From: Mycolicibacterium mengxianglii
Lineage (GTDB): Bacteria > Actinomycetota > Actinomycetes > Mycobacteriales > Mycobacteriaceae
Length of the DNA: 64,000 bases
Assembly: GCF_015710575.1 (NCBI RefSeq)
Contig: NZ_CP065373.1
Coordinates: forward strand, 5,208,001-5,272,000
Reading direction: 5' to 3'
The notes under the pieces are model-generated. The model was not told the origin of the DNA, did no database searches, and saw only the letters and a program-made list of their open reading frames with translations. This document shows, one piece after another, positions 2,295-14,658 of this stretch (position 1 is the first letter of the stretch; each line of letters starts with the position of its first letter). A program made the translations under genes and the position numbers.

Positions 2295-3257
2295 ATGGCT
2301 GCCGCATTACATGTTCTGAAGAACTCCGCAGCAGTGGCACTCGGCACGACGGTCGCTGGCATCGGGTATGCGGCGGTCATCGAACGCAACGCGTTCGTCG
2401 TGCGCGAGGTCACGATGCCGGTGCTCTCCCCGGGTTCTTCGCCGCTGCGGGTGTTGCATCTGTCCGATATCCACATGCGGCCGGGGCAGCGCCGTAAGCA
2501 GGACTGGCTACGTGAACTGGCGGGCTGGCAGCCCGACCTGGTGGTCAATACCGGCGACAACCTGTCGCACCCGAAGGCGGTGCCGGCCGTCGTGCAGTCG
2601 CTGGGTGATCTGTTGTCGGTGCCCGGATTGTTCGTCTTCGGCAGCAACGACTACTTCGCGCCGATGCCGAAGAATCCGGCGAAGTACCTCTACGACCGGG
2701 AATTCCGCACCCACGGACAGCCGCTGCCCTGGCAGGACCTGCGCGCGGCGTTCACCGAACGGGGTTGGCTGGATCTCACCCACACCCGGCGCGAACTGGA
2801 AGTGGCCGGGGTGACCATCGCGGCCGCCGGTGTGGACGACCCACACATCGACCGCGACCGCTATGAGACCATCGCCGGGCCGGCCAATCCGGCTGCGAAT
2901 CTGCGTCTGGCACTTACCCATTCGCCGTACACCCGCGTCCTGGACCGTTTCGCCGCCGACGGCTATCAGCTGATCATGGCGGGCCACACGCACGGCGGGC
3001 AGCTGTGTCTGCCGTTCTACGGCGCCGTGGTGACCAACTGCGACCTGGACCCGTCCCGGGCCAAGGGAGCGTCGAAGTGGGGTGCCGACACCGCCCTGCA
3101 TGTGTCGGCCGGCATCGGCACGTCACCGTATGCGCCCCTGCGCTTCTGCTGCCGGCCCGAGGCCACGCTGCTGACACTCATCGCGGCGCCGACGGGCGGG
3201 CGGGATTCCAGCCGCAGTCGCGGCCAGTCCCACCCAACTGCTTCTTCCGTGCACTGA
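2295..3257 (+). CDS. Calcineurin-like metallophosphoesterase (Rv3683-like)
   Basis: Predicted membrane-associated metallophosphoesterase of 320 aa. Dinuclear metal motifs are in order: SDIH (D58, H60), TGDN (D88), GSND (N118), an HSP histidine (H209) and GHTHGG (H231, H233). The hydrophobic N-terminus (about 8-30) may anchor it; relatives in this family, such as YkuE-type enzymes, are lipid-associated phosphoesterases. It starts 38 bp after ponA2 and ends 2 bp before the likely TTG start of the next gene, so the three are probably co-transcribed. The natural substrate cannot be told from sequence. Confidence 0.88.
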
Positions 3258-3259
3258 TT

Positions 3260-4357
3260 TTGGAAACACGGATCGCCGACCGCGGCCATTCGCGGCGCTG
3301 GGCGGACAACGCCGTGCGATTGATCGAAGCCGATGCCCGCCGCAGTGCCGACACCCACCTTGTTCGGTATCCGCTGCCGTCGTCATGGTGTGGCGGAGTG
3401 GACGTCCAGCTGTATCTGAAGGACGAGACCACCCACATCACCGGCAGCCTCAAGCACCGGTTGGCCCGGTCACTGTTCCTCTACGGCCTGTGTAACGGCT
3501 GGATCGAAGAAGGCACCACTGTGGTGGAGGCGTCGTCGGGGTCGACGGCGGTGTCGGAGGCGTACTTCGCCGCGATGCTCGGCTTGCCGTTTATCGCGGT
3601 GATGCCTGCCTCCACCAGTCCTTCGAAGATCGCGCTTATCGAAGCTCAGGGCGGCCGCTGCCATTTCGTGGCGCGGTCGGCGGAGGTGTACGCCGAAGCC
3701 CACCGTCTCGCGGCCGAGACCGGCGGGCATTACCTCGACCAGTTCACCAACGCCGAGCGGGCCACCGACTGGCGGGGAAACAACAACATCGCCGAGTCGA
3801 TCTTCACCCAGCTCCAGCTGGAGGAGCACCCGATCCCGGAGTGGATCGTGGTCGGGGCCGGGACGGGTGGCACCAGCGCGACGATCGGCCGCTACCTCCG
3901 CTACCGTCGGCACGACACCCGGCTCTGCGTTGTCGACCCCGAGAATTCCGCGTTCTTCCTGTCCTACGAACAAGGCGTCGACGTGTCCACTGGGGCCTCG
4001 TCACGGATCGAGGGAATCGGGCGCCCCCGCGTGGAACCGTCGTTCCTGCCGAATGTCGTGGACCGGATGGTCATGGTGCCCGACGCCGCGTCGGTAGCTG
4101 CTGCACATCACGTGAGTGAGGTGCTGGGGCGCCGGGTGGGTCCGTCCACCGGCACCAACATCTGGGGTGCGTTCGGCCTGCTGGCAGAGATGGTGGCCCA
4201 AGGACGCAGCGGGTCGGTGGTGACATTGCTCGCCGACAGCGGCGACCGCTACTCAGATACCTACTTCTGTGACGAGTGGCTGACCAACATGGAACTCGAC
4301 ACCAGTGGCCCGGCCGCGAAACTGTCCGAGTTCGAGAGGTCCTGCTCCTGGAGCTGA
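3260..4357 (+). CDS. PLP-dependent cysteine synthase/lyase-like protein (Rv3684-like)
   Basis: Fold-type II PLP enzyme of 365 aa. The Schiff-base lysine lies in TGSLKHR (K65), an Asn-containing phosphate/substrate loop lies in SSGSTA, and a glycine-rich PLP-phosphate loop reads GAGTGGTS. Family members act as cysteine synthases or beta-eliminating lyases, but this branch has no firmly assigned reaction that I recall. The frame is open much further upstream, but that part overlaps the preceding gene. I chose TTG at 3260, just after the previous stop, because homology begins at once ([20 protein letters not shown]). Its 3' end overlaps a possible small gene on the opposite strand. Confidence 0.85.
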
Positions 4358-5329: not shown

Positions 5330-6724
5330 TCATCTCTTCAGCAGCCCGTATTCGTGGAACCCACGGTCGGTGTTCACCTGCCACGGGTCCACGTCTTCGC
5401 CGAAGTAGTGGGCGACGCTGTGCAGGGCACTCAACATCGCGTGGTCCTGGTTGTCGTAGCGGTGCATGCCGTTGCGTCCGATCGGATGCAGCGTCGGGTG
5501 ATGCGTGCGCAACCAGTCGCGAATCAGTGCCACACTTTTGTCCCGGGCCGGGTCGCTGATCGGGTAGGCGTATCGGGAACGGACGCACATGATGTGCTCG
5601 ACTTCCGGGCTGAGCCCCAGTGCGCGCAGATCCTGTTCGACGATGGCGGCCAGGCGCTCGTCGTCGGCCAGCCACAGTTCCTCGTCAGGCAGGGTGAAGT
5701 ACTCCAACCCCAGGTAGGTGCCTTTCCAGTCTGGCGGGGCCAGTTCGGCTGACCAGCGGCCGTAGTTCTGTATCCGGCCCGAGTGGAACCGCTCCCCCGG
5801 TGTGTACACCCAGTGGTACGGGATGTCGTAGCGCTTCGGCAGGGCGACCGCGACGGTGATCAGTGCGCGGTGTTTCAGGGCTGCGGCGACGGCCCGGATA
5901 TGTGCCGGAGGGTGTGGTTCCAGCGTCTCGACGAGCAACCTCAGCGGCATGCTGGAGAACACCGCGTCGGCAGAGGCGCTTTCGCCGTTCTGGAGGTCGA
6001 GAATCCAGCTGCGACCGTCGGATCGAACCCTGGTCACCTGTGAGTTCAGCGCCGGGATGACGCCCGCGTCTGACAGCGCAACCGCGGCGGCATCCCAGAG
6101 CTGACCGGGGCCCAGCCGTGGGTAACGGAAACTGTCCTGCGCCGCCGACGGCGGGTCGCTGCGCACGTGCCAACCGATGGGCTTGATCCGTTGGTCGGCC
6201 CAGTCGCTGGTCAGGTTGCCCGGGTCGGCGAGCCACGTCTTTCGGACATAACCGTCGAAGAACAGGTTGTACCAATACCGGCCGAATTCCCGTACGCCCC
6301 ATTCCCGGAAGCTGGCCGAATGGTCGGCGCCCCGCGACCCGCCCCGGGCCCTGGACCGCAGCAGGCTGCTGAGCCCGTAGAGCCCGCGCCTGATTCCCAG
6401 TTGGGTCAGCAGGTCGCGCCCGACCAGCGGGTACCGCACGTAGTGCCCGTCCACCAGCATGGCCGAGTCCCTGCGCACGGTCAGCCACTGGTCGGGCGGA
6501 AGCAACGAGTCCCACAGCTGCAAGATCTCTTCACTTCGGGTGAAGAAGCGGTGACCTCCGGGGTCAACCCGCCAGTCGCCCTGGGTGGGCGTGCTCGCCA
6601 GGCCCCCGACGGCGCCCGTTGCCTCGTACAGACGAGGTGTCACTCCGCGGCGTACCAGGTCCAGGGCTGCGGTGAGGCCCGCCGGGCCTGCGCCGATGAT
6701 CACCGGATTCCGGCTGGGCTCCAC
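5330..6724 (-). CDS. FAD-dependent amine oxidase/UDP-galactopyranose mutase-like oxidoreductase
   Basis: Protein of 464 aa with an N-terminal dinucleotide-binding motif IIGAGPAGL (G11, G13, G16), a downstream acidic residue (LYEATGAVGG) and the DPGGHRFFTRS segment shared by UDP-galactopyranose mutase, protoporphyrinogen oxidase and desaturase-like flavoproteins. No membrane segment is evident. It begins with GTG 7 bp after the prenyltransferase gene on the same strand, so the two are very probably an operon. Because its partner is a prenyltransferase, oxidation or isomerisation of a prenylated product is a reasonable inference, but the substrate is unknown. Confidence 0.8.
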   Translation of the reverse strand: MEPSRNPVIIGAGPAGLTAALDLVRRGVTPRLYEATGAVGGLASTPTQGDWRVDPGGHRFFTRSEEILQLWDSLLPPDQWLTVRRDSAMLVDGHYVRYPLVGRDLLTQLGIRRGLYGLSSLLRSRARGGSRGADHSASFREWGVREFGRYWYNLFFDGYVRKTWLADPGNLTSDWADQRIKPIGWHVRSDPPSAAQDSFRYPRLGPGQLWDAAAVALSDAGVIPALNSQVTRVRSDGRSWILDLQNGESASADAVFSSMPLRLLVETLEPHPPAHIRAVAAALKHRALITVAVALPKRYDIPYHWVYTPGERFHSGRIQNYGRWSAELAPPDWKGTYLGLEYFTLPDEELWLADDERLAAIVEQDLRALGLSPEVEHIMCVRSRYAYPISDPARDKSVALIRDWLRTHHPTLHPIGRNGMHRYDNQDHAMLSALHSVAHYFGEDVDPWQVNTDRGFHEYGLLKR

Positions 6725-6731
6725 GTCAGCG

Positions 6732-7385
6732 CTACCGGCCGCGACGCTGCGGGAGGCGGCGGTACTCGAGGATGAGTTCGTCGATACAGCTCATGGTGAG
6801 GTCGTTGAGCGGCGTGCTCAGGAACATCAACTGGGCGTACTGGCTCTGCATCGGCAGAAAGCCACTGAGCAGCGGCTCGTCGGTGGTTCGGATGACCAGG
6901 TCGACGTCCTCGATTTCGAGTGCGGCGCGGATGTCACAGCCCTGCAGTTGGGCTCGCGAACACGCGGCGCGCAACTCCTCGTCGGCGTCGTATGCGGCCA
7001 GGATGTTGATCCGGAAGTCGTTGCCCTGCATGACTTTTTCCAGGTGGTCCGCCGCCGCACGGTAGGGCGCGGGCAGGAGATCCCGCTGCCCGTGCAGGCG
7101 CACGCTGCAGCTGGCAGGGTCGAAGTGCGCGGGAATGAGGGTGGTGAGGAAGTGGCTGGACGCCGCGTACACCGCGTCCAGTTCGGCCTGTGGCCGCGCC
7201 AGATTGGCCCGACTCAGGTTGTACACCGAGACGGTCTGCACGCCGTGTTCACGCAGTGCCACCAGGATTTCGGCGACCTTCTCGGCGCCTCGGAGGTAGG
7301 CCTCCGCGATGGTGGTCCCGCGGGACTGCGCCCATCGCCGCATCCCGTCGGGAATCAGACCCACATGGCCTGGTTCGTGATGCAC
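6732..7385 (-). CDS. Atypical short cis-prenyltransferase (undecaprenyl diphosphate synthase superfamily)
   Basis: Protein of 217 aa in the Z-prenyltransferase fold. It keeps the catalytic Asp in IPDGMRRWA (D13), but the usual Asn after DG is Met (M15). The second signature reads DLVIRTTDEPLLSGF (162-176): the first Arg (R166) and a Ser (S174) remain, the second Arg of the canonical RTxGExRxS motif is Leu (L172), and the conserved Glu of the QxAYxE segment is Gln (Q185). Canonical enzymes are about 240-300 aa. Short members with DGMRRW include, from memory, cyclolavandulyl/lavandulyl-type irregular synthases. Start chosen at GTG 7385, preceded by AGGGGG; an upstream in-frame ATG at 7466 would add a non-conserved leader. 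Operon with the flavoprotein at 5330-6724. Confidence 0.82.
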   Translation of the reverse strand: MHHEPGHVGLIPDGMRRWAQSRGTTIAEAYLRGAEKVAEILVALREHGVQTVSVYNLSRANLARPQAELDAVYAASSHFLTTLIPAHFDPASCSVRLHGQRDLLPAPYRAAADHLEKVMQGNDFRINILAAYDADEELRAACSRAQLQGCDIRAALEIEDVDLVIRTTDEPLLSGFLPMQSQYAQLMFLSTPLNDLTMSCIDELILEYRRLPQRRGR

Positions 7386-7666: not shown

Positions 7667-8050
7667 TTACAGGGCGTGCCCGGTCGTGGCGTCGACGTGA
7701 TCGGGCACGCCCTCGTGCTGATCGCCGACGGTGACGGTCCCGGTCGGCTCCACCATGAGGATCGACGCGCCGCCCTCCGACGACGGCTTGTGCTCGGTTC
7801 CGCACGGCACCGTGAAGACATCACCTCGTTGCAGCACCACTGTGCGGTCGCGGAGGGCAATGGTCAGCTCGCCCTCCAGCACCAGGAAGAACTCGTCGGT
7901 GTGGTCATGGGTATGCCAGATGTGCTCGCCGCGCACCTTGGCGATGCGGATGTCGTAGTCGTTGACCCGGGTCACGATGCGCGGGCTCCACAACTCCGCG
8001 AAGGACGCCAGAGCCGTGGTCAAGGAGATCGGTTCAGTCACGCCACCCAT
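7667..8050 (-). CDS. Single-domain cupin protein
   Basis: Small cytosolic beta-barrel of 127 aa. Cupin motif 1 is HTHDHTDEFFLVLEGE (His, His and Glu ligands) and motif 2 is GDVFTVPCGTEHKP (His ligand), so a metal site is intact. Such proteins may be dioxygenases, isomerases or ligand sensors, and the sequence does not decide. It is divergent from the GlxA-type regulator, 44 bp apart, so that regulator probably controls it. ATG 8050 is used; GTG at 8041 is an alternative. Confidence 0.8.
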   Translation of the reverse strand: MGGVTEPISLTTALASFAELWSPRIVTRVNDYDIRIAKVRGEHIWHTHDHTDEFFLVLEGELTIALRDRTVVLQRGDVFTVPCGTEHKPSSEGGASILMVEPTGTVTVGDQHEGVPDHVDATTGHAL

Positions 8051-8094
8051 CGTGCGGCCTTCCTGAAGTACGGCGTGAGTGCTAGAAATCGCAT

Positions 8095-9120
8095 GTGACG
8101 AAAGAATCCTTGCATCGCGTCGTGGCGCTGGTCGACGCCGGTTCTAATCCCTTCGAGCTCGGCTGCGCCACCGAGGTCTTCGGGCTTCACCGCCCCGAAC
8201 TCGGTCGCGACCTGTACAACTTCCGTCTCTGCTCGGCTACCCGTACCACTCGGATGCGCGACGGCTTCTTCGATCTGACCGGAATCGCCCCGCTCGACGC
8301 GATCGACGAGGCCGACACCGTCATCGTCCCGAACCGGCCCGATGTCGATGCCCCGCGGCGCCCGGCCGTCCTGGACGCAATCCGCCGTGCCCACGCCCGG
8401 GGTGCCCGGCTGATCGGCTTCTGCAGCGGGGCGTTCACGCTGGCCGAGGCCGGGGTACTCGACGGAAGACGAGCCACCGCCCACTGGCAGTGGGCGGCTC
8501 AGTTCCGGTCGCGTTTTCCTCACGTACACCTGGAGACCGACGTTCTCTTCGTGGACGACGGTGACATCCTCACAGCGGCGGGAAGTGCTGCGGCCCTCGA
8601 TCTGGGCCTGCATGTAGTGCGGCGCGACCACGGCGCCGAGATCGCCAACGCGGTCAGCCGCCGACTCGTCTTCGCCCACCGCGACGGCGGTCAGCGGCAG
8701 TTCATCGAGCGCCCGATCCCCGACATCCCGGACGATTCGCTGGGCCCGCTGCTGGCCTGGATCCAGCAGCACCTCGACCGCCCGCTGACGGTCGCGGACC
8801 TCGCCCGTCACATGGCGGTGAGCCCGGCGACGCTGCACCGTCGGTTCCGGACCGAGTTGGGCACGACGCCGCTCGCCTGGCTGACCGGCGAGCGTGTCGT
8901 CCTCGCCTGCCGCCTGCTCGAACGCGGCGAGTCCCGCCTGGACGTGGTCGCCCACCGCAGCGGCCTCGGCACGGCAACGAACCTGCGCACACTACTGCGC
9001 CGTGAAACCGGCCTGACCCCCACCGAGTACCGCCGCCGCTTCGGCCGTCAACCAGATCAATCCCAAGGCATGCCAAATCTACGCGCAGCGATTGAGGGGC
9101 ACGACGAAGTGACCGGCTGA
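8095..9120 (+). CDS. GlxA-family transcriptional regulator (DJ-1/PfpI plus AraC HTH)
   Basis: Regulator of 341 aa. The N-terminal DJ-1/PfpI-like domain (about 8-190) contains the nucleophile-elbow-like sequence LIGFCSGAFTLAEAG. The C-terminal AraC double helix-turn-helix (about 220-325) includes VADLARHMAVSPATLHRRF and the second-helix region. The family senses small molecules and activates neighbouring catabolic genes. It is divergent from the cupin, with only 44 bp between starts. GTG start at 8095. Confidence 0.87.
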   Translation: MTKESLHRVVALVDAGSNPFELGCATEVFGLHRPELGRDLYNFRLCSATRTTRMRDGFFDLTGIAPLDAIDEADTVIVPNRPDVDAPRRPAVLDAIRRAHARGARLIGFCSGAFTLAEAGVLDGRRATAHWQWAAQFRSRFPHVHLETDVLFVDDGDILTAAGSAAALDLGLHVVRRDHGAEIANAVSRRLVFAHRDGGQRQFIERPIPDIPDDSLGPLLAWIQQHLDRPLTVADLARHMAVSPATLHRRFRTELGTTPLAWLTGERVVLACRLLERGESRLDVVAHRSGLGTATNLRTLLRRETGLTPTEYRRRFGRQPDQSQGMPNLRAAIEGHDEVTG

Positions 9121-9218: not shown

Positions 9219-9938
9219 TCAGAAACGTGGTTCAAAACCAGAACCGAACATCCTCTCGGCGGCGAGCTGAGCGAGATTGGCGAGGATCTGCACGTGACCG
9301 GTACCCCACAGCCGGGGTTCCTTGTCGAATACACACAGCGTTCCGACGGCGTTGTCGTCGTGGTCGGTCAAGGGAATGCCGAGGTAGGCACCCACGGTGC
9401 CGTCGAGCACTGCCGGATGCTGCCGGAATACCGGGTCCGTCCGCGCGTCCTCGATGATCAGCGGCGAACCGTTCGCGACGGTGTACTGACAGACCGACCG
9501 ATCGAGTGGTGTCTGCCTGTCCTCCGGGGAGGTGGCACTCATTCCGACAGAGCTCTTGAAGAATTGGCGGTCGACATCGACCAAGGTCAGCGCGGACAGC
9601 GGGGCGTCGAGGGCATCGGCGGCCGCGCGGGTGATCCGGTCGTACATCTCTTCGGTCGGCGAATCCAGCAATCCGGTGGCATACAGCGCGCGCAGCCGGC
9701 CCGGGTCGGTCAGCGTCGCAGAGGTGCTCGGCATCGCCGTGTCGGCGAAAACGCCGGATTCCCTCAGGTGAGTCATCAGCTCATCGACGGCGGGACTGTC
9801 GGCGCGGCGCCGGTCGGCGAGCATCTGGGATGCGACGGCTCGCGCCACGTAGGTGGGGACATCCTGGCCGGCCTCCCTCGCACACTCTTCGAGGAAGCGG
9901 TTGAGCCAGTCGTCAAACCTGGCCAGCCTGCTGTTCAC
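9219..9938 (-). CDS. GAF domain-containing protein
   Basis: Protein of 239 aa. The first ~80 residues are helical and charged; residues about 85-235 are a GAF domain with the typical LDSPTEEMYDRITRAAADAL entry helix, a DRQFFKS strand, the DRSVCQYTV segment and a YLGIPL/GTLCVFD core. GAF domains bind small ligands, haem or cyclic nucleotides. No output domain is fused, so it may be a stand-alone sensor. It lies 64 bp downstream of the flippase-like gene on the same strand and could be transcribed with it. Confidence 0.8.
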   Translation of the reverse strand: MNSRLARFDDWLNRFLEECAREAGQDVPTYVARAVASQMLADRRRADSPAVDELMTHLRESGVFADTAMPSTSATLTDPGRLRALYATGLLDSPTEEMYDRITRAAADALDAPLSALTLVDVDRQFFKSSVGMSATSPEDRQTPLDRSVCQYTVANGSPLIIEDARTDPVFRQHPAVLDGTVGAYLGIPLTDHDDNAVGTLCVFDKEPRLWGTGHVQILANLAQLAAERMFGSGFEPRF

Positions 9939-10002: not shown

Positions 10003-11169
10003 TCAGCGCACCCGCGCGCCCATTCGCCGGATCCCGAAGGTCGCCGAATAGTCCGGCGCGCCTTTGACCGCAGCGCAGTGGTAGAGCAGCGCGGTGATCA
10101 GCTCGGCTACCACAAAGGCCAGGAAGATCGCCGCCGTGCTCTGCCACACCACCAGGAAGCCGACACTGATCACCAGGTAGATGAGGGAGCTGCCGCCGCG
10201 GATCCAGAACACCAGGACCGTTCTGCCCGCTTTGCGCAGCGCGGCGAACGGCACGGTCGAGACCAACAGGACGGCTTTCCAGAGACAGGCCAACAGCAGA
10301 GCAGTGATACCCACCCCGTCCCAGGCCGGACCGAAGACCAGGCTGCCGAGCCCGCCCAGCGCGGCGGCGAGCACTGCGACCATTCCCACGACGAAAACCG
10401 CGACGAACGCCGCCAGCTCACCCCGGTGGCCGTGGGCCAGCAATCGGTACCTGCCATAGGACAGGATCGGCTCCAGCGCCCCCGCGACCGTGGAGATCAC
10501 CCGGAAAGTCACCGACGCTGCCGGGCCGACCATCACCAAGAGCAGGGAGGTGATGGCCGGCTGAACAGCCCCGACGACCCCGGTCTCCGCGGTGACCCAG
10601 CTGGACCTGCGGATATCCGGCGGGAAACCCGTGCGGAGCCCGGCTTTTCGCGGCGAATACCGCCACAGGACGGCCAGCACGGCGCCGATCGCCAGCACCC
10701 GCACGCAGTGCGGATTGTGCTGATCGGCCATCCAGAGGGCGATCAGGCCGGCGAGGAGCAATGTCGCCGCCCCGAGGCCTTCCCGCTTCCACTGGCCGCT
10801 TACCACCCCGATCGAGCGGGCCATCAGCAGACCGGTCATCACTCCGACCGAGCTGATCATCAGCACCGCCGACGGCGCGACGGCGGGCCCGATCATCAGC
10901 AGGGCGCCGGCGGCCACGGTGAACAGCACCACCCACAGCGGCAGCCCCAGCTCACCGTCGGCGTCCGGAGTCGCCAGGCGACCCTCGACGATGAAAGCGT
11001 TGAACAGCTGGGCGATGTAGACGCCGACGACCAACGACAGGGCAAGGAACCCCTGGGTGTCGATGGGGGCGATGCGGGCGTAGATCGCGATGAAGATCGC
11101 CGGGAAGACGTTCAACGCCAGACCGGCCGTCACCTGGACCGCGGTGTGCAGGTGCTTGCTGTCAGGCAT
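10003..11169 (-). CDS. Multi-pass membrane protein, polysaccharide flippase-like
   Basis: Hydrophobic protein of 388 aa with roughly 10-12 predicted membrane helices and short basic loops, resembling the MOP/MATE-type flippases that move lipid-linked sugars across the membrane. There is no diagnostic catalytic motif. Its start overlaps the end of the Wzz-like gene by 8 bp, giving translational coupling. With the BcsB-like gene divergent upstream, a role in exopolysaccharide export is inferred. It is shorter than typical Wzx proteins (about 420-480 aa). Confidence 0.62.
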   Translation of the reverse strand: MPDSKHLHTAVQVTAGLALNVFPAIFIAIYARIAPIDTQGFLALSLVVGVYIAQLFNAFIVEGRLATPDADGELGLPLWVVLFTVAAGALLMIGPAVAPSAVLMISSVGVMTGLLMARSIGVVSGQWKREGLGAATLLLAGLIALWMADQHNPHCVRVLAIGAVLAVLWRYSPRKAGLRTGFPPDIRRSSWVTAETGVVGAVQPAITSLLLVMVGPAASVTFRVISTVAGALEPILSYGRYRLLAHGHRGELAAFVAVFVVGMVAVLAAALGGLGSLVFGPAWDGVGITALLLACLWKAVLLVSTVPFAALRKAGRTVLVFWIRGGSSLIYLVISVGFLVVWQSTAAIFLAFVVAELITALLYHCAAVKGAPDYSATFGIRRMGARVR

Positions 11170-12436
11170 CTGAAGTGGTCGCCACGGTCGGCGTCAGCAC
11201 GTCGGGCATCGTGCTCGCTGTGGGCACCGCTGTGGATTTTCCTTCCGGTCGACGACGGTAGGTGAAAACCGCCAGCACCGGCGCGGGACTGGCCGCGGTC
11301 ACCGAGCGAAGCGCCAATGCCTCTGCCGCAGTGTCACTTTCGAGCCGAGTCACCGCCACGACGTGGGTCGCAGCGTTGATCACCTCAGAGGTCAGCGTCG
11401 GATCGCCGACCACCGCGCCGTACACGACGTGTGCCGGCTCCGCGGACCCGGACTGATTCTCGGCGGCCGCGAACTCGAGCAACTCAGCCACCACGGCAGC
11501 GCCGGAGGATGCCGTCGCGCCGATGACGAGGATCAGGCGGTGGGGTCCCGCAGCCGGGCACTGCGCGTAGAGCGTGCGGGCCAGCCGGGCCTGGTCGTCG
11601 GTCCAGTCGGCGCGCGGCGGCAGACGGAGGTCGACGGCGGGCAGCAGCACCCCGTCGACGCTGTCGGTCATGGTCCTCACCAGCGCGCCGCGGCCCGAGC
11701 GCCGTCGACGAGCGAGCAGAATCGCCGCCACCGTCGCCCCACCGATCAACGCGCCCAGGAAGGCTCCGATGGCCAACTGCGCCGGACTCCGGTGGTTCGG
11801 CGTCGGCGGCTGCACCACCAACAGGGTGCTGGCCTGAGTCCCCTGCAGCTCGACGCTTTCCCGTACCCGCCGGAGTTCCTGCGCCCGCGGCGAGTCCGGA
11901 GGCTCGTGCCGCTCCCATTCGGTCAGGGCGGGCAGGACCGTTCGCAGTTGTTCATCCACGCGCTGTTCGAGCTGCTGGCGGTACACGTCTATGGCCACCT
12001 GCACGGTCCGGATGGCGTCGGCGTCGGAGGCGCTGCTGTTGCTGATCGTGACCACCGCGGACTCGCCGCTCTGCACGACGCTGAGCTCGGCGGGCTCGTC
12101 CTGGGCCATCTTCCTGGCCACCGCCTGCGCGAAACCCTCACCGGAGAGGTACGCGATCTCGCCGGCGACGAAAGTACTGGTGTTGTCTTGACTATCCGGG
12201 GTGGTCTGGCTCGCCCCACCGGCAATCGCAGTCAGGTCAGCCGGATTCCGCAGGCGCAGGAACGCGGTCGCAGTGGTGTCGGTGCCCACCGCCGCGAATA
12301 CCAGGCCACCGATGAGTGCTCCAACGATGACGCCGATGACGACTCCGATGAGCAGTCTGGTCCGCATCAGGCGCGCCTCGATCGACGAGATCATCCCAGT
12401 CACGGACGCAGGCACTCTCGACTCGTTGACAGCCAA
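11162..12436 (-). CDS. Wzz/chain-length-determinant-like protein with degenerate C-terminal nucleotide-binding domain
   Basis: Protein of 424 aa: N-terminal membrane helix (about 28-50), extracytoplasmic coiled region, second helix (about 218-240) followed by RRRR, then a cytosolic domain resembling the BY-kinase fold. Where a Walker A motif would be, the sequence reads ILVIGATASSGAAVV without Lys, so ATP binding is doubtful. Wzz proteins set sugar chain length together with a flippase/polymerase, which fits the overlapping downstream gene. The TTG start at 12436 has a GGAG about 10 bp upstream; an internal ATG (Met15) is also possible. Confidence 0.68.
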   Translation of the reverse strand: MAVNESRVPASVTGMISSIEARLMRTRLLIGVVIGVIVGALIGGLVFAAVGTDTTATAFLRLRNPADLTAIAGGASQTTPDSQDNTSTFVAGEIAYLSGEGFAQAVARKMAQDEPAELSVVQSGESAVVTISNSSASDADAIRTVQVAIDVYRQQLEQRVDEQLRTVLPALTEWERHEPPDSPRAQELRRVRESVELQGTQASTLLVVQPPTPNHRSPAQLAIGAFLGALIGGATVAAILLARRRRSGRGALVRTMTDSVDGVLLPAVDLRLPPRADWTDDQARLARTLYAQCPAAGPHRLILVIGATASSGAAVVAELLEFAAAENQSGSAEPAHVVYGAVVGDPTLTSEVINAATHVVAVTRLESDTAAEALALRSVTAASPAPVLAVFTYRRRPEGKSTAVPTASTMPDVLTPTVATTSDA

Positions 12437-12669
12437 CTCGGCAGTACTCCGTCCCTGTTCCTGATGCGACCCACATGGTAGATGGATCGCAACGGTTTGC
12501 CCCGCCGGACACCACCAACCGGTGCGTACCGGCCGTCAAGCGCGTTCTGCGGCGCACGGCAACCGGTCTAGCCATTTGCCAGCGTGCCGAGTTTCGTCCG
12601 GGGGCGTTTGCCAGTAGCGTGCGACGCCAGAGCATGATCTGAACGCATTCACGCGAGGCTGGAGCGACG
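12437..12669. other. Divergent intergenic region between Wzz-like and BcsB-like genes
   Basis: About 230 bp that must hold promoters for both directions. I see no gene or strong repeat here. A GGAG lies 6 bp before the rightward GTG. Confidence 0.4.
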
Positions 12670-14658
12670 GTGTCTTGGGGTTCACTCGTCCCGTCGATGA
12701 GGCGTGACACGATGCGGCAAGCTGTCTTTTCGGCGGGGTACCGACTGTTGTCGGTACTGCTGGCGTCGATACTGGCGGTGACGTTGGTAGCGCCGGGGAT
12801 GGCACACGCCGAGCCGGTACCGGGCGAGGACGTGTCCATCCGGTGGACCGAGCTCGGGCTGCCGGCCGACGTCACCTTGCTCGGCGCGAACACCAATCAG
12901 GACTTCACGGTCGCGGTGCCGTCCGGATTCGAGGTGAGACGGCTACGCGGGCTCATCCATGCTCCGGTCGAATTCGGGGCCGGATTCGTCGAGATCACCA
13001 ACAGCAGGGGTGCCCTGCTGGCGACAGTGGACCTGCCCGCGGTCATCCCGAGCCAAGCGGTGGTGCCTTTCGACGTCGATATCGCGGGGGCCCAAACAGA
13101 CCGGGATACAGCATTTTTGAGCTTCACGGTGCGGACGGCTGAGGTCGCAGTGGACCGGTGCGGCCAGGCCCAGCAGCTGACCCTGAGCGACCTCAGCACC
13201 ACATATGCCGGTAATGAAACCGCGCCCACCACCATCGCGTCGTTCTTTCCGTCGGTCCTTCAACAGGTCACCGTTTATGCACCGATCGATGCCGACAGCG
13301 CCGAACAGCAGGCGGTCCTCGCACTGACGTCGGCGATCGCGCGGATGTACCGGCCGCAGTCGCCGGCGATCACGGTGGTCGATCAACCGCGCGGCACCAC
13401 ACCACCGCCGGCTCCTCGATTCGCCCGCGCCGTCGTCGTCGAACGCGGTGACGCGGCGATCTCCGTGGTCAACCCGGGCAGTGCCGAGGCCTTCCTGAAG
13501 CTGGCCGGCCGCGGCGACCAGCTCACCGATCAGGCGTCGCTGGTGGTCAATCAGCTGCAGTCCGTGGTGCAGGTCGCCACCGCGCGAGTCGACCTCGCCG
13601 GTCACGAAAGTCCGTCCGGTTCGGACCAGATGACCTTCGAGCAACTGGGCCTCGGCGGCGAAAGTCAGGTCATGCGCACCGCGGATTTCACTGTGGGCGT
13701 TGATCGTTCAGCGCTAGGTGGTCGCGTGGAGGGTCTGCAGGTACATCTGCTGGCGGCTTACACCCCGGTGGCGGCTGCCGATGCGGCCACTGTGATGGTC
13801 CGCGTCAACGGTCAGTCGGTCTACACCTCAGCGCTGGACAGCACCGGCCGCGTCGACGCCGTGTTCGACGTGCCGGGCGCCGTGCTCAGGCAGCGAATCA
13901 ATCTCGGGTTCGACCTCACTTTCAGCCCGCGCCAACTGTGCACGCCGACGACTGCGCCATTGACATTCCAGCTCGACCCGCGGTCGACGGTGACGATGCG
14001 CCGAGGTGGCCCCGCCCCAGGCGGTTTCGGCGCCGTACCGTCTGAGTTCAGCCCAGAGTTCCTGGTCGCGCTGGACGGCAGTAGCCCTGACCAACTGGAC
14101 TTCGCAAGCCAGGTGGTGGCAGACATCTCGCGGCGGACATCGACGACGCTGATGCCGCGCGTCGTCGATGTCACGGCAGCTGCAGACGCGACCACCGGGG
14201 CGTTGATCGTGGCCAACGCCGCGACGGTGAAGCTGACGTCGTTACGACCGCCGATCGACGGTGAGAATTCGGACGTGGTTGTCGATCTCGGCAAGGAGTT
14301 CCGCGCGCAGATCACCGACGGCGTCGGCTCCATCCAGGTGTTCGCCGACCGTCCCCGGGACCGGACCGTCATCTTGGTCACCACCAACGGCGCGTGGTCG
14401 CTCGTCGAGCCGCTCTTCGGTCATATCGATCGATTGCCCGACGGCTGGTCGAGCCTGGCGGGTGACGTTCTTGCCGCCGGCCCGGAAGGCACCGTTGTCG
14501 ACCTGTCGCTCGGATCCGCTGACACGGCGTCGCCGGCGGACCATGATCGGCCCGGCTGGCCGCTCTGGGCAGCTCTCGGAGGTGTTGCCGTCGTGGCGTT
14601 GGCGGTGGGCATCGCACTGTGGTGGCGCAGGCGGCGCAGCGGCCTACGCTCGCCCTGA
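12670..14658 (+). CDS. Secreted BcsB-like membrane-anchored protein
   Basis: Protein of 662 aa with a signal peptide (hydrophobic about 24-42, ending near MAHAEP), a long beta-rich extracytoplasmic region and a C-terminal membrane helix (about 630-655) followed by RRRR. Architecture and length resemble BcsB, the cellulose-synthase-associated subunit that guides a nascent polysaccharide outside the membrane. No cellulose synthase (BcsA) is in the window. GTG 12670 has GGAG upstream; ATGs at 12697 and 12712 are alternatives. It is divergent from the Wzz-like/flippase-like pair, suggesting a shared export system. Confidence 0.6.
   Translation: MSWGSLVPSMRRDTMRQAVFSAGYRLLSVLLASILAVTLVAPGMAHAEPVPGEDVSIRWTELGLPADVTLLGANTNQDFTVAVPSGFEVRRLRGLIHAPVEFGAGFVEITNSRGALLATVDLPAVIPSQAVVPFDVDIAGAQTDRDTAFLSFTVRTAEVAVDRCGQAQQLTLSDLSTTYAGNETAPTTIASFFPSVLQQVTVYAPIDADSAEQQAVLALTSAIARMYRPQSPAITVVDQPRGTTPPPAPRFARAVVVERGDAAISVVNPGSAEAFLKLAGRGDQLTDQASLVVNQLQSVVQVATARVDLAGHESPSGSDQMTFEQLGLGGESQVMRTADFTVGVDRSALGGRVEGLQVHLLAAYTPVAAADAATVMVRVNGQSVYTSALDSTGRVDAVFDVPGAVLRQRINLGFDLTFSPRQLCTPTTAPLTFQLDPRSTVTMRRGGPAPGGFGAVPSEFSPEFLVALDGSSPDQLDFASQVVADISRRTSTTLMPRVVDVTAAADATTGALIVANAATVKLTSLRPPIDGENSDVVVDLGKEFRAQITDGVGSIQVFADRPRDRTVILVTTNGAWSLVEPLFGHIDRLPDGWSSLAGDVLAAGPEGTVVDLSLGSADTASPADHDRPGWPLWAALGGVAVVALAVGIALWWRRRRSGLRSP

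Follow-up and report, generated by a model that had tools for sequence, protein, structure and literature searches.

Cis-prenyltransferases are, to our knowledge, known mainly for joining isoprenoid diphosphates to each other. In undecaprenyl diphosphate synthase (UppS), the Asn of the DGNxRW motif, the second Arg of RTxGExRxS, and a conserved metal-binding Glu lie at positions that contact isopentenyl diphosphate (IPP) and Mg2+; the cis-prenyltransferase fold is also shared by tuberculosinol synthase and kolavelool synthase. Two irregular head-to-middle enzymes of Streptomyces, Mcl22 (isosesquilavandulyl diphosphate synthase) and CLDS (cyclolavandulyl diphosphate synthase), read DGM in place of DGN. 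The predominance of reactions between isoprenoid diphosphates is in line with PMC8131916, which also reports that MM_0014 of Methanosarcina mazei, a cis-prenyltransferase without Arg in its C-terminal RXG motif, O-prenylates small alcohols; the lack of this Arg is proposed there as the reason why solvent molecules serve as acceptors. According to PMC7839719, the RXG Arg is involved in binding IPP. MM_0014 differs from the comparison drawn below in that it also accepts IPP and dimethylallyl diphosphate (DMAPP) (PMC8131916), and it is used here as a mechanistic analogy only. Among the open-access papers listed in literature searches, none describes a mycobacterial irregular cis-prenyltransferase or a prenyltransferase–flavoenzyme pair.

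The window, i.e., the whole 64,000-nucleotide stretch of Mycolicibacterium mengxianglii DNA that was analysed, encodes on its minus strand (6732..7385, GTG start at 7385) a divergent protein of 217 aa with the cis-prenyltransferase fold. Its match to PF01255 (115.4 bits against the Pfam cut-off of 27) assigns it to the cis-prenyltransferase superfamily, and the AlphaFold2 model has a mean pLDDT of 93.0. The score against the NCBIfam uppS equivalog TIGR00055 fell short (84.0 bits against 109.55), and a PHROGs search gave no match. Among the matches listed in the homologue search, a 98% identical protein carries the name Mycolicibacterium mengxianglii. The chain-elongating residue set of UppS is replaced at three points, all read from the minus strand: DGMRRW (residues 13–18; 7332..7349) has Met15 (bases 7341–7343) for the Asn of DGNxRW, RTTDEPLLS (residues 166–174; 6864..6890) has Leu172 (6870–6872) for the second Arg of RTxGExRxS, and Gln185, within YAQLMF (codon at 6831..6833), occupies the position of the metal-binding Glu. 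The C-terminal RXG motif is retained in this copy as RRG (residues 214–216; 6738..6746).

The M. mengxianglii genome encodes three PF01255 cis-prenyltransferases including the 217-aa protein. The other two have canonical motifs, with Asn, Arg, and Glu at the positions of Met15, Leu172, and Gln185; one of them, at 848 kb, groups with Rv1086 in a phylogenetic tree of 54 rows (two pairs of which are duplicates), while the other is presumably of the Rv2361c type. The 217-aa protein shares PF01255 and the fold with the Z,E-FPP synthase (Rv1086 type) and the decaprenyl diphosphate synthase (Rv2361c type), but the other two PF01255 members of this genome have canonical acceptor motifs. Since these two are encoded elsewhere in the genome, its gene can be called accessory, and on the same ground its identification as the essential UppS was rejected.

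The residues were followed in two sets, one of 121 proteins (the query and the best 120 of 358 homologues; a further homologue search was represented by the best 120 of 457 proteins) and one of 37 genomic copies from genomes of the genus, that of M. mengxianglii included. The latter set is without loci L034–L036 (L035 and L048 being one contig), and the residue and pair counts are without three further family genomes (G385, G494, and G510). Position 172 is Leu in 119 and Met in 2 of the 121 proteins, and Leu in 37/37 genomic copies. Position 15 is Leu in 107, Met in 13, and Ser in 1 of the proteins, with 25 Leu and 12 Met among the genomic copies. Position 185 is the least uniform: Gln in 94, Arg in 11, Glu in 9, and other states in the remaining 7 of the 121 proteins (including two Ala, two Lys, and one His), against 26 Gln, 5 Glu, 4 His, 1 Leu, and 1 Arg among the 37. 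Leu172 is thus fixed or almost fixed, Met15 represents one of two alternative states, and position 185 varies, with Gln most frequent. None of the 37 copies retains the Asn of DGN or the second RTxGExRxS Arg, and the RXG Arg (position 214) is present in 10 of them, the others having Leu (23), Phe (1), or a gap (3). D13, R17, W18, N61, R64, R166, and S174 are invariant (37/37), and the donor-side residues are unchanged throughout. Five proteins around Mycolicibacterium sp. S2-37 make up a sister group, in which position 15 is Met and positions 172 and 185 are both Leu (5/5 each). Because Leu172 is fixed in 37/37 copies, chance or a sequencing oddity was rejected as the origin of the pattern.

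Judged by its invariant donor residues, fixed Leu172, and variable position 185, the family appears to have retained the donor side and altered the acceptor side beyond what is seen in the known head-to-middle enzymes. A retained donor side with an altered acceptor side would also suit a hydrolase or an enzyme similar to terpene synthases, in which the donor diphosphate would be ionised and then quenched by water or cyclised, as in other prenyltransferase-like terpene synthases; PMC8131916 cites tuberculosinol synthase and kolavelool synthase as hydrolysing allylic diphosphates, and reports that MM_0014 takes water and alcohols. Such an activity is nevertheless improbable, as no name of this kind occurs among the 36 PDB sequences that phmmer listed and the flavoenzyme partner described below would be left unexplained. 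Tuberculosinol synthase itself was not among the PDB rows listed by phmmer or Foldseek, which excludes nothing. Heteromeric cis-prenyltransferases composed of catalytic and non-catalytic subunits also exist (PMC7839719), and with two canonical enzymes in the genome, the 217-aa protein might act only together with one of them, altering its product. We regard this as very unlikely, since the catalytic-motif residues D13, R17, and W18 are invariant (37/37), which would not be expected of a non-catalytic subunit, and the gene adjoins that of a flavoenzyme, not a second prenyltransferase gene.

The resemblance to Mcl22 and CLDS is marked at the N-terminus. In a PDB search with the N-terminal piece, Mcl22 (5xk3) and CLDS (5ygj) both read LLPDGMRRW, and the query reads the same apart from the first letter; it shares with them LxPDGMRRW, Tyr at the position of the usual His, a length of about 217 aa, and the fold. 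A search with the Mcl22 sequence returned 115 proteins, CLDS among them as P0163, and the alignment contained 109 homologues (of 112 matches, the three no longer than 200 aa were excluded) together with 9 family rows. Position 15 is Met in 109/109 of these homologues, and Ala replaces the Glu of xxEN in 92/109 of them and in 36/37 family copies. Of the points raised in the earlier note, which gave no strand and did not mention the flavoenzyme partner described below, the three replacements are present in the minus-strand translation and are not peculiar to this copy, and DGMRRW is indeed common to the lavandulyl-type irregular synthases, although within the family PDGMRRW has Met at its third motif position in only 12 of the 37 copies. 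Leu172 and Gln185 do not belong to the irregular-synthase pattern: the Mcl22/CLDS homologues keep the second Arg in 109/109 cases and have an acidic residue at position 185 in 109/109 (107 Glu and 2 Asp), both of which are absent from the 217-aa protein, and they keep the RXG Arg in 108/109, whereas in the family these three positions are occupied by Leu, by Gln in most copies, and frequently by Leu, respectively.

In the 54-row tree, the family and the sister group form a clade (100/100) that adjoins 8wu7, the cis-geranylfarnesyl diphosphate synthase of Streptomyces clavuligerus (89/97), and is associated weakly (73/22) with rows of the Z-FPP synthase type. The family lies outside both groups of the latter, one of 13 rows (98/94) and one of 5 (100/97); the union of these 18 rows has a support of 93/81, which is below the starred level. 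Mcl22 and CLDS form a separate long branch that the family does not join, and uniting the family, the sister group, and Mcl22/CLDS in a single clade costs 5.3 log units and is not rejected (AU p 0.329), at a point where the tree carries a warning of long branches meeting. The two canonical enzymes encoded elsewhere and the position outside the Z-FPP-type groups set the protein apart from the essential UppS and the Z-FPP synthases, respectively; a union with the irregular synthases was not recovered in the best tree. The proposed irregular prenyl diphosphate product is possible in view of the shared PDGMRRW and of a union that is not rejected, but another reading fits the residues better, because the second Arg and Glu/Asp persist in the Mcl22/CLDS homologues, which the best tree also places apart from the family. 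A head-to-middle reaction, in which DMAPP in the acceptor site would attack a DMAPP, GPP, or FPP donor and other residues would replace the lost Arg and Glu, is consistent with the common LxPDG[ML]RRW, with the Ala of xxEN, and with the single clade not being rejected; it is set back by the conservation of both residues among the homologues and by the best tree, which pairs the family with the S. clavuligerus enzyme, and we consider it an unlikely, though serious, candidate. The DGM motif shared with Mcl22 and CLDS may reflect either descent or convergence.

The nearest solved sequence is 8wu7 (97.8 bits, E 7.4e-27, phmmer against the PDB), which is also the first Foldseek match. It shares with the 217-aa protein SR[AD]N, LSGFLP, and the Tyr for His, but it is canonical in DGNRRW, RTSGERRLS, and the Glu. 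This kinship, visible also in the tree, the retained first Arg and Ser of RTxGExRxS, and the RXG motif of this copy would fit a head-to-tail short-chain synthase that adds IPP and releases a short Z-prenyl diphosphate, perhaps the carrier lipid of a sugar transferase often encoded nearby; that transferase (PF02397) would use a prenyl phosphate, which we take to be its substrate. The replacement of the Asn of DGN and the second Arg in 37/37 copies, both of which are present in 9/9 aligned rows outside the family, the sister group, and Mcl22/CLDS, speaks against such a synthase, which we consider fairly unlikely.

The gene is followed directly downstream, also on the minus strand (5330..6724), by a gene for a 464-aa flavoenzyme resembling UDP-galactopyranose mutase (UGM; NCBIfam PRK07208.1-3). 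In all 37 copies of the prenyltransferase gene, a flavoenzyme gene comes next on the same strand, with 6 to 52 bases between match ends, and the pair is also present at loci L034 and L036, outside the 37-copy set. Among 198 genomes of the genus, the prenyltransferase was found in 36 (E 1e-30; 37 copies) and the flavoenzyme in 38 (E 1e-80); in the two genomes with the flavoenzyme only (G008 and G185), its gene is cut by a contig end, the G185 match starting at base 3 of its contig. The partner has the UGM fold with the paired active-site Arg residues, and shares with UGM of the eukaryotic type the FAD-binding GAGPAG, GGH, two aligned Arg, and RY..NQDH, but the identity is only about 22%. Because a separate GLF-family (PF03275) gene for the ordinary UGM lies elsewhere in the genome, the role of cell-wall UGM was rejected for this flavoenzyme. 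Its homologues of other families (loci L083–L090) had dissimilar neighbours, which revealed no function.

A wider module frequently surrounds the pair. A homologue of the GAF-domain protein encoded in the window (Pfam; 9219..9938, minus) occurs near 28/37 copies and a sugar transferase gene near 27/37; transferases of less than 45% identity were left uncounted, and of the 10 copies near which none was found, two are on contigs shorter than 5 kb (L047 and L048). PF02397 (Bacterial sugar transferase) was present in both transferases run (L039 and L036). The GAF protein, sugar transferase, prenyltransferase, and flavoenzyme genes stand in this order and all run in the same direction at 19/37 loci; the GAF and transferase genes lie downstream and reversed at 5/37, the transferase gene alone is downstream and reversed at 2/37, the GAF gene is missing at 1/37 and the transferase gene at 2/37 (this window included), and neither is present within the stretch examined at 8/37. 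In the window, the GAF gene and the prenyltransferase gene are separated by a cupin gene and an AraC-type gene, with no sugar transferase between them; the cupin and AraC/DJ-1 regulator genes (7667–9120; best NCBIfam FtrA, below cut-off) stand where many relatives have the sugar transferase. Another locus of this genome has a 58% identical transferase beside part of a GAF-like gene (44%). The position of the module varies by genome; at L036, L039, L041, and L042 it is on the same stretch as purK- and purE-type genes. The adjacency of the flavoenzyme is a stronger finding than the residue changes, while the sugar transferase ties the protein to a pathway less strongly than the flavoenzyme does, because that gene is missing here and was not found near 10/37 copies in all.

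We tentatively favour the view that the protein is an accessory enzyme with a non-IPP acceptor, to which it would transfer a prenyl group during the synthesis of a glycolipid or polysaccharide. Since the donor-side residues are invariant, it would be an active enzyme whose donor site holds an allylic prenyl diphosphate and Mg2+; since the loss of the second Arg is fixed and the Glu and RXG Arg are often lost, the altered acceptor site would direct the prenyl group to another acceptor. The UGM-like flavoenzyme would then handle the product or the acceptor, and its nature points to one of these containing a sugar or nucleotide diphosphate, while the retained first Arg and Ser would leave room for an acceptor carrying a phosphate. 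A setting in glycolipid or exopolysaccharide synthesis, close to a polyprenyl-phosphate sugar transferase, is suggested by the neighbourhood. The fold and family, the conserved residue pattern, the gene pair in all 37 copies, and the frequent sugar transferase and GAF neighbours are observations; retained catalysis, a non-IPP acceptor, this order of steps, and the pathway are inferred from them. A non-IPP acceptor is, however, at odds with the first Arg and Ser kept in 37/37 copies, the Glu in 5/37, the RXG Arg in 10/37 (this protein included), and the nearest solved relative, 8wu7, being by its name an ordinary chain-elongating enzyme; the pathway link is weakened by the lack of a sugar transferase beside this copy. 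A more specific version, in which the two enzymes form a prenylation unit with IPP-independent transfer to a sugar, a nucleotide sugar, or the reduced flavin of the partner, and N5-flavin chemistry completes a prenylated glycolipid or sugar precursor from which a surface polysaccharide of mycobacteria is built, is speculative and quite unlikely. The pair points to an undescribed modification of a lipid or sugar, as opposed to the usual synthesis of a lipid carrier, and it may open the way to a surface lipid or sugar of environmental mycobacteria that has so far gone undescribed. With its kept donor side, changed acceptor side, and UGM-like companion, the family would also lend itself to the question of which residues determine the acceptor.

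In a sample of 397 genomes from 85 genera of the order, 6 matched at E 1e-22, all of them from the same genus (1/85 genera), and no spread beyond it was found in this sample. The genus has further additional cis-prenyltransferases (L049 in G023 and L051 in G015), whose motifs are canonical and which the tree places in a group by themselves. A second kind of pair occurs in G018 (L050:8615-10592), where genes of nusA and infB type enclose a gene for a divergent cis-prenyltransferase with the canonical DGNRRW and, after it, one for a PRK07208-like flavoenzyme, and in G004 (L093) a flavoenzyme gene occupies the nusA/infB-type place without a prenyltransferase. Genome G044 has two prenyltransferase–flavoenzyme pairs, on contigs C144 (L048) and C156 (L047). 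Locus L034, a MAG contig on which part of a GAF gene precedes the full prenyltransferase gene, also has, about 3 kb upstream of that gene, a fragment of a second cis-prenyltransferase copy (L034:892-1149; residues 49–134, 71% identity). Three long open reading frames of the window (10003–14658; 388, 424, and 662 aa) have no Pfam or NCBIfam match; relatives of the 388- and 424-aa frames are found next to the module in L045 and of the 388-aa frame in L040, and weak relatives (27%) of the 662-aa frame were found in L037 and L038. On the other side of the pair, the window encodes an ordinary L-cysteine desulfhydrase, Cds1 (3005–4357; NCBIfam NF052478, 684 bits against 600).
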